Shown piece by piece: positions 1,865 to 7,745 of a DNA stretch of 42,838 nucleotides; position 1 is the first letter of the stretch; each line of letters opens with the position of its first letter. Made by a program: the position numbers and the translations under genes. The stretch comes from Gemmatimonadota bacterium (GTDB taxonomy: Bacteria; Gemmatimonadota; Gemmatimonadetes; Longimicrobiales; Gaopeijiaceae), in contig JAPPGM010000080.1 in NCBI GenBank assembly GCA_028874995.1, positions 1-42,838 on the forward strand, read 5' to 3'. Under the pieces are notes generated by a model. The model made no database searches. It was not told the origin of the DNA and saw nothing but the letters and a program-made list of their open reading frames with translations.

Positions 1865-2302
1865 CTATTCCTTTCGCCAGGGATTGACCGTCTTGACACC
1901 TGTGTTCCGAAAGTCCCCATCGTTTCGGGTCACGATCGCCAGGCCGTGGCTCACCGCCGTACCGGCGAGCATGGCGTCCGGCAGGTGATGGTCGAGCGAT
2001 TCGCCGCGGCACCGCTTTTCTTCCATGATGCGGGCACCCTGGGCGGCATCGGCGGCGCTCCAATCGAGGACCCGGTCTTCGAAGATGCTGTTTACGAGAT
2101 CCCGAAAGCGCCGGGCCAGGTCCTCGCGCCGGTGTTCGTGGTCCAGACGGCCGATCCCGTTGAGGATCTCCCAGACCGTGATGGCACTCAGATGCAGTCG
2201 CTCGCTCGCGACACCGTCAAGGAATCGTGCGACTCGCGGCTCCGGGTGCGGGCGCATCATTTCCGAGACGACGCTCGCGTCCAGCAGCCAGGCCACCGGC
2301 AA
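1865..2302 (-). CDS. vapC: PIN-domain toxin (VapC/FitB-like ribonuclease)
   Basis: Predicted Mg-dependent endoribonuclease toxin of a type II toxin-antitoxin module. A 145-residue PIN domain fills the whole protein: acidic residues D8 (LLDAS), E45 (ITVWEI), D109 (LPDAMLAGTA) and the TRNDGDF block at 125-131 match the PIN active site. The FitB-like ending (TRN-DF, then NPW) is typical. The start is a TTG directly abutting the TAG stop of the antitoxin gene; a GTG two codons later (2296) is an alternative. Translation is thus coupled to the antitoxin. Which RNA it cuts cannot be told from the sequence. Confidence 0.9.
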   Translation of the reverse strand: MPVAWLLDASVVSEMMRPHPEPRVARFLDGVASERLHLSAITVWEILNGIGRLDHEHRREDLARRFRDLVNSIFEDRVLDWSAADAAQGARIMEEKRCRGESLDHHLPDAMLAGTAVSHGLAIVTRNDGDFRNTGVKTVNPWRKE

Positions 2303-2554
2303 CTACTCCACTTCCCGGAATTCGACCGGCCGAGACCCGTAACCCCTGCGCAAGGGCAGTTCAACTCCGTGTTCCGGGCCGAAGTATCGGCTGAAAGCCT
2401 CGGAAGGGCGCATGCGGCGGCGGGACGCCTCTCTCCGGTCGCGGATCATCCGGCGTACGAATTCCTCCATCGAGACGCCGGCGAGCCGAGCCTCGCTCTT
2501 GAGCCACGCCTTGTCACCCGGGTCCATCCGGCGAACGGTGATCGCGGCACTCAT
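2303..2554 (-). CDS. Ribbon-helix-helix antitoxin (FitA/VapB-like)
   Basis: 83-residue antitoxin expected to bind the adjacent PIN toxin and repress its own promoter. The N-terminus (AAITVRRMDPGDKAWLKSEA, then GVSMEEFVRRMI) has the beta-strand then two-helix pattern of Arc/FitA-type ribbon-helix-helix proteins. The basic, proline-containing C-terminal tail would wrap the toxin. The ATG at 2554 has GAAGGGA about 12 bases upstream, a long but usable spacing. A strong promoter with palindromes in its spacer lies at 2652-2680. Confidence 0.85.
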   Translation of the reverse strand: MSAAITVRRMDPGDKAWLKSEARLAGVSMEEFVRRMIRDRREASRRRMRPSEAFSRYFGPEHGVELPLRRGYGSRPVEFREVE

Positions 2555-2715: not shown

Positions 2716-3813
2716 TCAGTCGTCGTCCTCCTCCCCGAGCCGCCGCGCGATCCGGTTGAGCTTCGGCCCGATCGACGACATCACCGCGGCGAACAGGACG
2801 ACCGCCCAGCCCGCCGAAAGGATGAGGTGGGCGCCGACGAGTACCCGTGCGCCGACCGAAGCCGGCACCACGGCAATGAAGTCCTGGCCGAGCGCGGTGA
2901 AAAACGAGAAGGACAGCCAATCGGTGATCCCGGCACCCTCTGCGGCGCCGTCGAAACCGGCGGGGCTGAAGCGCCCCAGCATTCCGTAGAATCCGGCGAA
3001 CAGGACAATGATCGTCAGGTAGCCGATCGCGAACCCGCCGATCGGGACCCACATGACGCGCAGGTAGTCGGCGAGCTGGCCGTACACCTGAAGGCGCGGG
3101 CGAAGCCAGGTGATCGCGGTGCGCCCAAGGAGAAACGCCGCCGCCGGCAACACCAGCAGCGCGAGGGGCACGAGCAGGACCACGTCCCATATCGTCGCAC
3201 CTTCATCCGCCACCCCTAGCGCGAGCAGCACGATCAGGACGACCGGCAGCGCGACCGCACCCAGGAACAGCAGCCGAGGCGGCCGCGCATCGCGCCATCC
3301 TTCGCGGCGGTGGCAGAGAACGCCGACGAGCAACGTCGTCCAGGGCACCACCACGACCGGAAGGAGCATCGCGAAAAAGGCCTCCCGGACGCCTTCCGGA
3401 AAGGGTTGCGACACCAGCACGGAGGGACAGAGCCCCAGTGAAAGCAGGACCGCTACGACTAGCACCTCCCGGCGCACGTCCCGGTACCCGGAAAGCGATG
3501 ACCCCCCGATTCCGTCGATCAGACCGACCGCCAGTGCAAGGACAGGCAGGATGAGAAAAGCCCACCCGTCGTAGGGGAGGATGCTGTCGATCAGCACGGC
3601 GGCAACGCCGACGATCGAGCCGATCAGGATGCCGGTCCACGGGCCGCGCCCCCAGCCTCCGCGCAGCCCGACGCCCGCACCGACCGCGATCCCGTAGCCC
3701 GCTCCCAGCAGCACATCGGCATGAGCCCCGGTGATGGCGTAGCCGAAGGGGACGACGACGAGGGTCACGGCGGCCGCAATCCGGAGGACCAGCCAGATCG
3801 ACCGTGCCAGCAC
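2716..3813 (-). CDS. Multi-pass membrane protein with degenerate channel-like C-terminus (paralog 2)
   Basis: Unrecognised inner-membrane protein of about 365 residues with roughly eight hydrophobic segments. It is a clear paralog of the gene immediately upstream (shared blocks: VVPFGYAITG, GSSLSGYRD, LCHRREGWRD, YLRVMWVPIGGFA, ASVGARVLVGAHLILS). The last ~100 residues read as outer helix, re-entrant FSFFTALGQDF segment and inner helix, as in two-helix ion-channel modules, but the GYG filter is absent. The start chosen is GTG 3813, because VLARSIW aligns with MLNHSIW at the start of the paralog; it lies 4 bases after the paralog's stop. A GTG at 3864 with GGAAG upstream would add 17 residues. 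Channel function is not shown. Confidence 0.75.
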   Translation of the reverse strand: MLARSIWLVLRIAAAVTLVVVPFGYAITGAHADVLLGAGYGIAVGAGVGLRGGWGRGPWTGILIGSIVGVAAVLIDSILPYDGWAFLILPVLALAVGLIDGIGGSSLSGYRDVRREVLVVAVLLSLGLCPSVLVSQPFPEGVREAFFAMLLPVVVVPWTTLLVGVLCHRREGWRDARPPRLLFLGAVALPVVLIVLLALGVADEGATIWDVVLLVPLALLVLPAAAFLLGRTAITWLRPRLQVYGQLADYLRVMWVPIGGFAIGYLTIIVLFAGFYGMLGRFSPAGFDGAAEGAGITDWLSFSFFTALGQDFIAVVPASVGARVLVGAHLILSAGWAVVLFAAVMSSIGPKLNRIARRLGEEDDD

Positions 3814-3817
3814 TCCC

Positions 3818-4936
3818 CTATCCACGGGAAGTCGCCCCGGTCGGGGAGTCGTCGCTGCCCTCACCGTCTTCCACTGCGAGGCGCCGCGCGATCCGGTCCA
3901 GCTTGGGTCCGATGGATGACATCACCGCCGCGAACAGCACCAGCGCCCACCCCACCGAGAGGATCAGGTGGGCGCCGACCAGGACCCGCGCACCGACCGA
4001 AGCCGGGGCGAAGTTCGCGTAGTCCTGGGCAAGGGCGTTGAAGAAGGAGAAGGACAGCCACTCCGTGATCCCGCCTCCGGCGCCGGCAAACGCACCGGGT
4101 TGAAAGCGTTCCAGCATGCCGTAGAACCCGGCGAACACGACGATGATCGTCAGGTAGCCGACTGCGAACCCGCCGATCGGGACCCACATGACGCGGAGGT
4201 AGTCGGCGAGGTGGCCGTACACCCGCAGGCGCGGCTGGAGCCAGGTAATGACGACTCGTCCCAGAAGAAACGCCGTCGCGGACAGCGCCACCAGCCAGAT
4301 GGTCGTGAAACCCGCCGCTTGCAGGATCGGAAGGAAAGCCCGGGTCAAGCGACCATATCGGATCTCCTCGGAGAGCATCAGGAAGAGCAAGGGGGCCAAC
4401 GTTGCAACCGCACCGAGGACCAGGAGCCGGGGAGGACGCGGGTCGCGCCATCCCTCGCGGCGGTGGCACAGAAGGCCGGCGATGAGCGCCATCCAGGGCA
4501 TGCACCCGAGGGGAGTCAGGGCGAAGCGCACCCCGCCGGACGCGATCTGGACGGGGAGCAGCCCCAGGGTGAGGAGCGCGGATGCGATGAACGTCTCGCG
4601 GCTGATGTCCCGATATCCGGAGAGGGATGACCCGCGGAGCCCGTCGATCAGGCCGACCGCCAGGCCAAGCGCGGGCGGGACGATGATTGCGAACCCCGTG
4701 ACGTGGCCCGCGATCAGCGAGGTGGCGATCCCGACGATCGTGCCGATCAGGACGCCGGTCCACGTGCCGCTCCGCGAACCTCCCCGAAGGCCGACGCCCA
4801 CGCCGACCGCGAGGCCGCAACCCGCTCCCTTCAGGACATCGGAGTGGTCCCCCGTGATTGCGTAGCCGAAGGGCACGACGATGAGGGCGACCGGGGCCGC
4901 AATCGCGAGCGCGCGCCAGATCGAATGGTTCAGCAT
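3818..4936 (-). CDS. Multi-pass membrane protein with degenerate channel-like C-terminus (paralog 1)
   Basis: 372-residue membrane protein with glycine-rich early segments (GAGCGLAVGVGVGLRGG), about eight hydrophobic stretches and a short acidic cytoplasmic-looking tail. The C-terminal third (GYLTIIVVFAGFYGML, then WLSFSFFNALAQDYANFAPAS, then VLVGAHLILSVGWALVLF) aligns without gaps to Ion_trans_2 pores; the filter positions GYGD become DYAN. The conserved CHRREGWRD loop between helices is charged and shared with the downstream paralog. The ATG at 4936 lacks its own ribosome site but overlaps the stop of a 23-codon ORF (ATGCTGA), so translational coupling is likely. Function unknown. Confidence 0.8.
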   Translation of the reverse strand: MLNHSIWRALAIAAPVALIVVPFGYAITGDHSDVLKGAGCGLAVGVGVGLRGGSRSGTWTGVLIGTIVGIATSLIAGHVTGFAIIVPPALGLAVGLIDGLRGSSLSGYRDISRETFIASALLTLGLLPVQIASGGVRFALTPLGCMPWMALIAGLLCHRREGWRDPRPPRLLVLGAVATLAPLLFLMLSEEIRYGRLTRAFLPILQAAGFTTIWLVALSATAFLLGRVVITWLQPRLRVYGHLADYLRVMWVPIGGFAVGYLTIIVVFAGFYGMLERFQPGAFAGAGGGITEWLSFSFFNALAQDYANFAPASVGARVLVGAHLILSVGWALVLFAAVMSSIGPKLDRIARRLAVEDGEGSDDSPTGATSRG

Positions 4937-5001
4937 TCGTAGCCGGAGATGGCGTTGCCGGGGCCGCGAATCGGCAGGTCCAACTGTGTGGCGGGTGTCA
5001 C
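4930..5001 (-). CDS. 23-residue micro-ORF, translationally coupled leader or peptide
   Basis: A GTG at 5001 follows a perfect AGGAGGT (5009-5015) by 7 bases. The ORF encodes a 23-residue peptide ending LDLPIRGPGNAISGYEC, and its TGA overlaps the ATG of the channel-like membrane gene. No homolog is recognised. The ribosome site is the best in the window, which argues for real translation. Either the act of translating it controls the downstream genes, or the peptide itself has a role; its single Cys is C-terminal. In the same frame an upstream ATG at 5058 would give 42 residues, but it lacks a ribosome site and lies within the predicted -10 region. Confidence 0.55.
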   Translation of the reverse strand: MTPATQLDLPIRGPGNAISGYEC

Positions 5002-5008
5002 GGTTGCC

Positions 5009-5015
5009 ACCTCCT
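5009..5015 (-). promoter_or_regulatory. Perfect Shine-Dalgarno sequence of the micro-ORF
   Basis: Minus-strand AGGAGGT is fully complementary to the usual 16S anti-SD. It lies 7 bases before GTG 5001. Most other genes in this window have weaker sites or none. Confidence 0.7.
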
Positions 5016-5055
5016 CCACCCTTGCTGGAACGGAAAACGGAGAAGCACCAGGTAG

Positions 5056-5084
5056 CATATGGGATGCATGGTCTGTTCCGTCAA
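5056..5084 (-). promoter_or_regulatory. Predicted promoter of the micro-ORF/channel-like gene operon
   Basis: On the minus strand: TTGACG (5079-5084), 17 bases, CATATG (5056-5061); TATGCT (5054-5059) with a 19-base spacer is an alternative -10. The start site would be near 5048, leaving a leader of about 47 bases that contains the AGGAGGT site. The order promoter, ribosome site, micro-ORF, membrane gene is coherent. Confidence 0.5.
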
Positions 5085-5188
5085 TGGTGGGGGCTTCAGG
5101 CGGACGGTCGGGCGCCCGGGGGCTGAAGCGTGGGACGGTGCGGACGGTCACGCCAGCGCGAATCGCGGCGAACGGCTTATCTTCCAGA

Positions 5189-6727
5189 ATGGTGTCTTCC
5201 TTCTACCTGACCACACCCATCTACTACGCGTCGGGCGAGCCCCATCTGGGCCACGCCTACACCACCATTCTGGCCGACGTGATCGCGCGCTACCGGCGGC
5301 GCGCGGGCCAGAACGTTCTCTTCCTCACGGGGACCGACGAGCACGGGCAGAAGATTCAGGAGGCGGCCGCCGAGCAGGGGATGTCGCCGCTGGAGCTGTG
5401 CGATCTCATGGCGGGGCGCTTCGAGGAAGCGTGGGAGGACCTCGGCATCTCGCACGACCGCTTCATCCGCACGACCGAGGCCGAGCACCGCGCGGTGGTC
5501 ACGGCGCTGCTGGAGCGCCTGCACGACAACGGGCACATCTACGAAGCCGAGTACGCCGGGTGGTACTCGGTGGGGCAGGAGCGCTACTTCACCGAGAAGG
5601 AGATCGGCCCCGACCGCGTGGACCCGATTGCCGGGGGGCCGGTGGAGCGCATCCGCGAGACGAACTGGTTCTTCCGCATGAGTGACTTCCAGGAGCGGCT
5701 GATCCGGCACATCGAGGAGAACCCCGACTGGATCGTGCCGGCGACGCGCCGCAACGAGGTGCTGGGGTTCCTCGCCCAACCGCTGGCCGATCTGTCCATT
5801 TCCCGGCCCCGCTCGCGCATACACTGGGGCATTCCGTTGCCGTGGGACTCCGGACAGGTCTGCTACGTCTGGGTGGACGCGCTGACCAACTACGTGACCG
5901 CGTCGGGCGCCATCGACCCGGCGGCCCCCAGGGAGAAGCGCGGTTTCGGTGATCTGCGGCCGTCTCGCTGGCCCGCCGATGTGCACCTCATGGGCAAGGA
6001 CATCCTGACCACGCACGCGGTCTACTGGCCCACGCTGCTGATGGGCGCGGACCTGCCGCTGCCCCGCAGGATCCTGGCCCACGGCTGGTGGGTGGTCGGC
6101 GACACCAAGATGTCCAAGTCGCTCGGCAACGTGGTGGACCCTCTGGACCTGCGGGAGCGGTTCGGCACCGGCGCCGTGCGCTGGTACCTGATGCGCGAGA
6201 TGGCCACCGGCCAGGACGCGTCGTACACCCCCGACCGATTCCTGACCCGGTACGACGAACTCTCCAACATCCTGGGCAACCTCGCCCACCGTACCCTGTC
6301 CATGGTGAAGAGGTACCGAGGAGGTGTCGTCCCCGATGCGTCCGCCGACGGGCTCGCCGCCGAAACGGAGAAGGCGCTGACGGCCTACCGCGACGGATTG
6401 GAGCGCTACCGTCTGCACGAGGGCTTCGCCGCGGCGATGAATCTGGCGAGGGCAGCCAACGGTTTCGTGGAGGCGAAGGAACCCTGGGCGCTGGCGCGCC
6501 ATCCGAAGGGTGGAAACGAGCTCGACCGCACTCTCGCCACGCTCGTTCGAACGCTGGCGGTTCTGGCGGCAATGTTCGAGCCGGTCACCCCGATCAAAGC
6601 CGGTAAGTTGGCCATCCGACTGGGTTTAGGCAGTGTCCCTCTCTTCACCGAGCTGGACGGTTTGCAGGTCGGAGGATGCTCGGTTACCATCGGGTCGCCT
6701 CTCTTCCCCCGGGTGGACCCGGACTGA
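5189..6727 (+). CDS. metG: Methionyl-tRNA synthetase
   Basis: Charges tRNA-Met with methionine using ATP, in the cytoplasm. 512 residues: class Ia Rossmann core with the HIGH-type motif HLGH (19-22) after TTPIYYASGEP, the FLTGTDEHGQK block, the KMSKS motif at 307-311, then an anticodon-binding helical domain. There is no C-terminal tRNA-binding (Arc1p-like) domain, so this is the short form. The connective peptide that usually carries zinc-binding Cys pairs reads YAGWYSVGQERYFTEKE here and has none. The ATG was chosen because homology begins at VSSFYLTTP. No Shine-Dalgarno is visible; TATCTT at 5178-5183 lies where a -10 would produce a leaderless message. Confidence 0.96.
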   Translation: MVSSFYLTTPIYYASGEPHLGHAYTTILADVIARYRRRAGQNVLFLTGTDEHGQKIQEAAAEQGMSPLELCDLMAGRFEEAWEDLGISHDRFIRTTEAEHRAVVTALLERLHDNGHIYEAEYAGWYSVGQERYFTEKEIGPDRVDPIAGGPVERIRETNWFFRMSDFQERLIRHIEENPDWIVPATRRNEVLGFLAQPLADLSISRPRSRIHWGIPLPWDSGQVCYVWVDALTNYVTASGAIDPAAPREKRGFGDLRPSRWPADVHLMGKDILTTHAVYWPTLLMGADLPLPRRILAHGWWVVGDTKMSKSLGNVVDPLDLRERFGTGAVRWYLMREMATGQDASYTPDRFLTRYDELSNILGNLAHRTLSMVKRYRGGVVPDASADGLAAETEKALTAYRDGLERYRLHEGFAAAMNLARAANGFVEAKEPWALARHPKGGNELDRTLATLVRTLAVLAAMFEPVTPIKAGKLAIRLGLGSVPLFTELDGLQVGGCSVTIGSPLFPRVDPD

Positions 6728-6765: not shown

Positions 6766-6794
6766 TTGACCCCGTGGGCATCGATGTGTAAGCT
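6766..6794 (+). promoter_or_regulatory. Candidate promoter of the M23 peptidase gene, near-leaderless
   Basis: TTGACC (6766-6771), 17 bases, TAAGCT (6789-6794). The start codon at 6804 is 9 bases after the -10, so the transcript would carry almost no leader. No ribosome site is present. Confidence 0.4.
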
Positions 6795-6803
6795 ACCGCC
6801 GTA

Positions 6804-7745
6804 ATGAAGCGCGAGAGATGGACCGTCCTGTTCCTGAGGGAAAAGGCGAGCGCCGTGCGGCAGTACTCGCTGCCGACACGCGCTGTTCGCCCGGTATTGG
6901 TGTGTGCAGGTATCATGGCCACCCTGCTGCTGAGCGCCACCGCGTTTCTCGCCTATGATTCCAGCGCGCGGGTTCGCGCCAGCCTCCTGGCACGCGAAAA
7001 CCGGCTTCTGGAGCAGGAGTTGGAGGAGTTCCGCACAAGGGTCGGCAGCTTCGAGACGCAGATCGCCGACCTGGCGGAAAAGGACCGGCAGGTACGGTTG
7101 CTGACGGGACGGGTGGGCATCGACCAGGAAGTGTTCGAGGTGGGGGTGGGCGGTCCCGGATTGCCGGATCCGAGCGAAGGAGAGCTCTGGTCCCTCGATC
7201 CCCAGGCTTCGGAGTTGGCCTACGCGAACCGCTACGATCTCGATGTTCTTGAACGCAAGGCGGATCTGCTGGCGACGAGCTTGGGCGAGACGTTCGCCAT
7301 GGTGGACGACCAGTTGGACCGCCTGGAGGCGATGCCGTCCGTCTACCCGGTCGGCGGGTACCTTTCAAGCCGTTTCAGCCACAGTCGGCTTCACCCCATC
7401 CTCCAGGAATACCTGCCTCACCGGGGCATTGACATAAGCGCAGTCTACGGCACCCGGATCATCGCCTCCGGGCCCGGGATCGTCACCTTCGCCGGCACCA
7501 GGCAGGGTTACGGATACATGGTGGAGATCGACCACGGGTTCGGTGTGATCAGCCGATACGCGCACGCGTCGAAGTTGCTGGTGTACAAGGGCCAGCGCGT
7601 CGAGCGCAAGGAGGTGATCGCCCAGGTCGGGAGTACCGGCACCAGCAGGGCGCCCCACCTTCACTTCGAGATTCACGAAGACGGCAAGGCGGTCAACCCG
7701 ATGAAGTACATGCTGTCGAGTGCCCCGCCGAGAGTGCCGCGCTAG
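6804..7745 (+). CDS. Membrane-anchored M23 (LytM-type) metallopeptidase
   Basis: Predicted peptidoglycan endopeptidase or division/envelope regulator, 313 residues. One transmembrane helix at about 32-52 (PVLVCAGIMATLLLSATAFLAY) is followed by a coiled coil (ENRLLEQELEEFRTRVGSFE), a linker, and a C-terminal LytM domain. Zinc ligands are visible: H206 and D210 in HRGID, and the HLH motif with H285/H287 in APHLHFEIH. The catalytic site therefore looks intact and the enzyme is probably active in the periplasm. A promoter-like element lies just upstream. It stands alone between metG and a lipoprotein gene. Confidence 0.92.
   Translation: MKRERWTVLFLREKASAVRQYSLPTRAVRPVLVCAGIMATLLLSATAFLAYDSSARVRASLLARENRLLEQELEEFRTRVGSFETQIADLAEKDRQVRLLTGRVGIDQEVFEVGVGGPGLPDPSEGELWSLDPQASELAYANRYDLDVLERKADLLATSLGETFAMVDDQLDRLEAMPSVYPVGGYLSSRFSHSRLHPILQEYLPHRGIDISAVYGTRIIASGPGIVTFAGTRQGYGYMVEIDHGFGVISRYAHASKLLVYKGQRVERKEVIAQVGSTGTSRAPHLHFEIHEDGKAVNPMKYMLSSAPPRVPR

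Follow-up and report, generated by a model that had tools for sequence, protein, structure and literature searches.

The membrane protein gene mem1 of an uncultured Gemmatimonadota lineage probably obtains its ribosomes through translational coupling from a 23-codon leader ORF (uORF), whose peptide would be a by-product. This leader ORF is real and probably translated, in an ordinary role; both its translation and the coupling that would drive mem1 are inferred from the DNA of the window, i.e., the whole stretch of 42,838 nucleotides analyzed here, and from related genomes. Most likely, the leader is a rather commonplace instance of translational coupling, and the channel-like protein family encoded behind it is the more interesting subject. 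The features concerned are listed below, where G018 denotes a close relative carrying the homologous locus.

5051..5084, minus strand: promoter-like region; CATATGCTACC within it is unchanged in the three genomes with the module, TANGCTACC occurs twice in the window, and the region fails a strict sigma-70 scan
5009..5015, minus strand: AGGAGGT, Shine-Dalgarno (SD) sequence of the leader ORF, with an SD:anti-SD energy beyond that of shuffled leaders
4930..5001, minus strand: leader ORF encoding VTPATQLDLPIRGPGNAISGYEC, 23 codons, GTG start, TGA stop; frame kept in G018, peptide not
3818..4936, minus strand: mem1, 372-aa multi-pass membrane protein with a predicted C-terminal K+-channel-like TM-P-TM pore; no significant Pfam/NCBIfam match
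2716..3825, minus strand: mem2, tandem paralogue of mem1 (64% identical); its GTG at 3825 overlaps the mem1 stop (alternative GTG at 3813)

Layout and ribosome site of the leader ORF

All elements of the leader given in a preliminary description of this DNA were found on the minus strand where they had been placed. AGGAGGT (5015-5009) lies 7 nt from the GTG start codon (5001-4999), 23 codons follow, and the stop codon TGA (4932-4930) overlaps the mem1 ATG (4936-4934) by 7 nt (ATGCTGA). The predicted SD:anti-SD energy, calculated with a generic bacterial anti-SD that may not be the host's 16S 3' end, was -16.8 kcal/mol for the leader ORF and -1.7 kcal/mol for mem1, consistent with the earlier statement that mem1 has no ribosome site of its own. 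The leader site had also been called the best in the window, which is nearly right, as its duplex energy ranks 6th among 3,082 start codons. The C-terminal Cys that had been pointed out in the peptide is present, but it is dictated by the stop/ATG overlap GAATGCTGA, which forces this residue.

To gauge the role of chance, the 152-nt leader was shuffled 3,000 times with its dinucleotides preserved. Of the shuffled leaders, 61% contained an ORF of 9 codons or more that ended at the mem1 start, whereas only 0.13% had such an ORF together with an SD energy of -14 or below, and none of the 3,000 reached -16. The ribosome site is therefore the meaningful part of the layout and the ORF alone is not.

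In the reading we favor, ribosomes would bind the strong SD (5009-5015), initiate at GTG 5001, terminate 23 codons later at TGA 4932-4930, stay on the mRNA and restart at the overlapping ATG 4936 of mem1. The promoter/SD/GTG module would thereby provide translation initiation for the mem1-mem2 unit, in which mem2 is probably also translationally coupled to mem1, and the leader peptide would be unimportant. Two features that coupling calls for are present, namely an initiation site of its own upstream (SD of -16.8 kcal/mol, 7 nt, GTG) and a stop codon overlapping the downstream start. Against it, the overlap measures 7 nt, whereas overlaps of 4 or 1 nt are favored and coupling in E. coli is less efficient with larger overlaps (PMC12548453); 7 nt is nevertheless within the range where coupling occurs.

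Homologues of the membrane proteins put the weak mem1 site into context. An SD of their own at or below -5 kcal/mol was found in 40 of the 52 other homologues with a scorable start (median -9.0), a comparison that is somewhat biased in that start choice favors strong SDs and a few homologues are partial matches. What sets the copies of the window and G018 apart is a weak SD at mem1 combined with a strong one situated a leader ORF farther upstream. Since most of the 52 homologues have their own SD, the mem1 locus looks like one with an exchanged initiation region. A frameshifted N-terminal extension of mem1 was ruled out, as homologues share the start position of mem1 and G018 shows an identical frame offset. 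Three related homologues (L011, L014, and L020) are likewise without an SD at the mem start, which in each of them is overlapped by a very short ORF (ATGAAGTGCAG...) whose SD is itself weak (about -3 kcal/mol).

Conservation of the leader in a close relative

Conservation was judged from a single comparison, that of the window with G018 (L003, RHO3_bin_73), the only relative with both the module and mem1; the two are approximately 95% identical (about 5% diverged) over the locus. The frame, the GTG, the strong SD (-13.0 kcal/mol), the weak mem1 SD (-2.5 kcal/mol), and the GAATGCTGA overlap are all kept in G018. Hence, the reading frame and ribosome site that had been proposed, and the layout of coupling with them, are retained in the one close relative where leader and mem1 occur together. 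The leader ORF of G018 has 25 codons compared with 23 in the window, owing to a 6-nt indel (an insertion in G018) that leaves frame and overlap intact. Nevertheless, frame retention is weak evidence because random sets of 14 substitutions leave the leader ORF free of new stops in 67% of cases, and an indel of a multiple of three is expected by chance in about 1 of 3 cases by our own estimate. The persistence of frame, SD, and overlap in G018 is thus suggestive only.

The peptide behaves differently. Apart from the indel, 14 of 66 sites of the leader ORF (21%) differ between the window and G018, spread evenly over the codon positions (5/5/4), and dN/dS is 0.64-0.93, depending on gap placement. 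In the stretch between the -35 box and the SD, 11 of 72 sites differ. For comparison, pS was 0.079 and pN 0.012 for mem1, pS was 0.102 for mem2 (first 300 codons, ungapped comparison), and pS was 0.138 for the S9 peptidase gene. The leader peptide evolves at least as fast as nearby synonymous sites and faster than those of mem1 (21% vs 8%), which leaves it without visible constraint. The synonymous excess that would mark conservation at the peptide level was looked for against G018, and no such excess was found. The idea of a conserved regulatory or bioactive peptide accordingly found no support, given the change in length from 23 to 25 aa, the even substitutions, and the dN/dS values. Because the peptide is not conserved between close relatives, the leader ORF most likely just passes ribosomes to mem1.

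Distribution and genomic arrangement of the module

The window belongs to a metagenome-assembled genome, placed in the Gemmatimonadota by the resemblance of its locus to records of that phylum. Of the 154 genomes of the order, leader DNA comprising promoter, SD, and GTG was present in three, which belong to a single genus: the window's own genome, G018, and G003 (L087). The module appears to be lineage-specific. It is single-copy in the window's genome and was not found on plasmids; its single copy, its restriction to 3 of 154 genomes, and its absence from plasmids ruled out a repeat or mobile leader.

In G018, the homologous locus follows an ArsP_1 permease gene, in the order permease, module, mem1-mem2. 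Homology of the window to G018 starts abruptly at approximately 5088, just upstream of the -35 box (counterpart in L003, 1991-2056), and divergent metG lies beyond this point in the window. The abrupt start of homology and the different neighbors (permease vs metG) indicate a putative rearrangement near 5088. The permease copy of the window's genome is on a separate contig. G003 has the same permease, but the promoter, the SD, and GTGACACCCGCCAC behind it lead into a vapC fragment instead of mem1; the SD energy of the module is -14.6 kcal/mol there. With vapBC located behind mem2 in the window, the most plausible reading of the G003 arrangement is a deletion that would have joined the module and vapC.

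The toxin-antitoxin genes offered some further observations. The truncated vapC of G003 (L087 2474-2659, minus strand) forms an in-frame fusion with the promoter, SD, and GTG of the leader. An intact vapBC-like pair lies directly behind mem2 in the window (1865-2554, minus strand) with TTGACAGCACAATGTGCTAGCA upstream; TGCTAGCA is a palindrome upstream of this pair and likewise upstream in relatives. An antitoxin gene fragment appears to be left over in G018. An antitoxin remnant as the ancestral gene of the module was rejected, as the intact vapBC of the window (2554-1865) stands behind mem2 with a separate promoter-like region.

Promoter-like region and possible independent translation of mem1

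The promoter had been described as TTGACG-17-CATATG. The letters are in place (TTGACG 5084-5079, 17 nt, CATATG 5061-5056, minus strand), but the combination did not pass a standard sigma-70 scan, and TATGCT (5059-5054) followed by ACC, i.e., TATGCT(ACC) 5059-5051, looks like a better -10 than CATATG. This reading is preferred because TANGCTACC was observed twice in the window against 0.13 expected, each time just ahead of a gene start, the second copy preceding the M23 peptidase gene at 6804. Furthermore, CATATGCTACC is invariant across the three module-bearing genomes. As a side observation, TAAGCTACC is found at 6789-6797 (plus strand), a few bases 5' of the SD-less start of the M23 peptidase gene. 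This gene may possibly have a leaderless transcript, with TANGCTACC as a lineage-specific -10 motif.

Alternatively, the leader could be incidental, with mem1 translated independently (leaderless or SD-independent) and the SD and GTG left from another gene or arrangement. We regard this as unlikely, although it is the strongest of the alternatives. The module also stands without mem1, ahead of the truncated vapC in G003, and an overlapping ORF by itself is the 61% chance event noted above. Several genes of the window score as SD-less, among them metG and the M23 peptidase gene, so mem1 might start without coupling as well. On the other hand, SD, GTG, and overlap were kept in G018 though the surrounding leader diverged by 15-21%, and no promoter-like site was seen just ahead of ATG 4936 when the region 4900-5300 was scanned.

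RNA structure and a possible role for the peptide

The leader yielded no terminator, no Rfam match or known RNA family, and no unusual fold, the 169-nt leader being no more stable than its shuffles (z = -0.28); no riboswitch or attenuator was found. For the window, a small hairpin (CGAAUG-CUGAAC-CAUUCG) is predicted whose stem includes the mem1 AUG. This hairpin is not conserved, as the AUG of G018 is predicted to have its first two bases unpaired, and RNA unfolding is at most a possible coupling step.

These results bear on a regulatory leader peptide, in which stalling or arrest in the micro-ORF would sense a condition and alter access to the mem1 start, in the manner of toiL-topAI or of antibiotic-resistance leaders. 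The layout is compatible with it and the predicted hairpin of the window would provide a structure holding the AUG. However, that hairpin is not shared with G018, neither terminator nor Rfam family accompanies the ordinary fold, and peptide and codons diverge freely (dN/dS again 0.64-0.93, from two sequences only), which makes such regulation improbable.

A function of the leader peptide is altogether unlikely. A small protein of 23-25 aa acting with or on the channel-like membrane protein would suit the strong SD and the tight linkage to the membrane gene, but it is very improbable in view of the same dN/dS range, the changed length, the terminal Cys forced by the overlap, the lack of an evident hydrophobic segment (by eye), and the finding of a convincing peptide relative in G018 only among 23 genomes of the genus. 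Equally improbable is the idea that the peptide is a recently arisen, rapidly evolving partner or regulator of a new K+-channel-like family, produced at a fixed ratio to it through coupling. The striking micro-ORF may thus be explained without a functional peptide.

Comparison with known leader ORFs

Leader ORFs whose sole role is ribosome delivery have been described, both as uORFs (PMC12548453) and as ORF-11 of integrons (PMC8876359). ORF-11 (and ORF-17/18) of the class 1 integron attI1 site is a short ORF with its own SD and a non-functional peptide that boosts the downstream gene by coupling; its initiation signals matter and its amino acids hardly do (PMC8876359). Like the present leader, ORF-11 terminates near the start of a following gene that has no initiation region, whereas the present leader occurs at one locus in one genus and its stop overlaps the ATG directly. 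The leader ORFs of mycobacterial MIRU elements and the bicistronic design similarly have a short upstream ORF that hands ribosomes downstream via overlapping stop and start codons (PMC12548453), but MIRU elements have a 4-nt overlap and are repeated, while the module described here has a 7-nt overlap and is single-copy in its genome. toiL, a regulatory stalling uORF upstream of topAI in E. coli, is also a short ORF ahead of a structural gene (PMC12121999). There, RNA structure occludes an existing ribosome binding site, whereas mem1 is without such a site and no unusual structure was found in its leader. The mem1 leader is likely a naturally occurring example in which, apparently outside integrons, a leader ORF replaces a gene's own ribosome site.

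A membrane protein family with a predicted channel-like pore

The membrane protein family, with its predicted K+-channel pore and unusual filter, is probably a more useful lead than the leader. Many Gemmatimonadota genomes and some from Acidobacteriota contain members of it, and no viral relatives of mem1 were found. No significant Pfam or NCBIfam match was obtained for mem1 or mem2, and neither Pfam nor the PDB gave a sequence-level match. Copies are often multiple per genome in Gemmatimonadota (alignments A2 and A3; window 2716-4936).

The C-terminal 134 residues of mem2 were modeled by AlphaFold2 as helix, pore helix, and helix (mean pLDDT 76.6). The top PDB matches of this model in Foldseek were mostly K+ channels (the best being Kir and others), with some glutamate receptors, at a probability of 1.00 but a best E-value of only 6e-3. 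The pore of glutamate receptors has the same general fold as that of K+ channels. Structural alignment gave VIA Z values of up to 12.7, several of them at an rmsd of 2.0-2.3 over 95-101 residues, where a Z below about 13 for helical models may mean merely a common arrangement. With the full-length mem1 model, the structure search returned weak matches only, and K+ channels were matched by the C-terminal domain alone. The prediction for the C-terminal domain of mem1 and mem2 is thus a K+-channel-like TM-P-TM pore whose filter is non-canonical, and the earlier label of a channel-like gene is backed by the fold comparison of this predicted model.

This domain resembles Kir/KcsA-type K+ channels in its predicted TM-pore helix-TM arrangement. 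The mem proteins differ from these channels in an N-terminal extension of about 220 residues that contains several helices, and in their filter, which is mostly TAL[GA]QD[FY] where Kir/KcsA-type channels have TVGYG; no TVGYG-type selectivity filter was encountered among 42 members of the family. The filter position reads [TNA][AG]L[GA][QH]D[FY] in 38 of 42 members and SAIADP in the four divergent ones.
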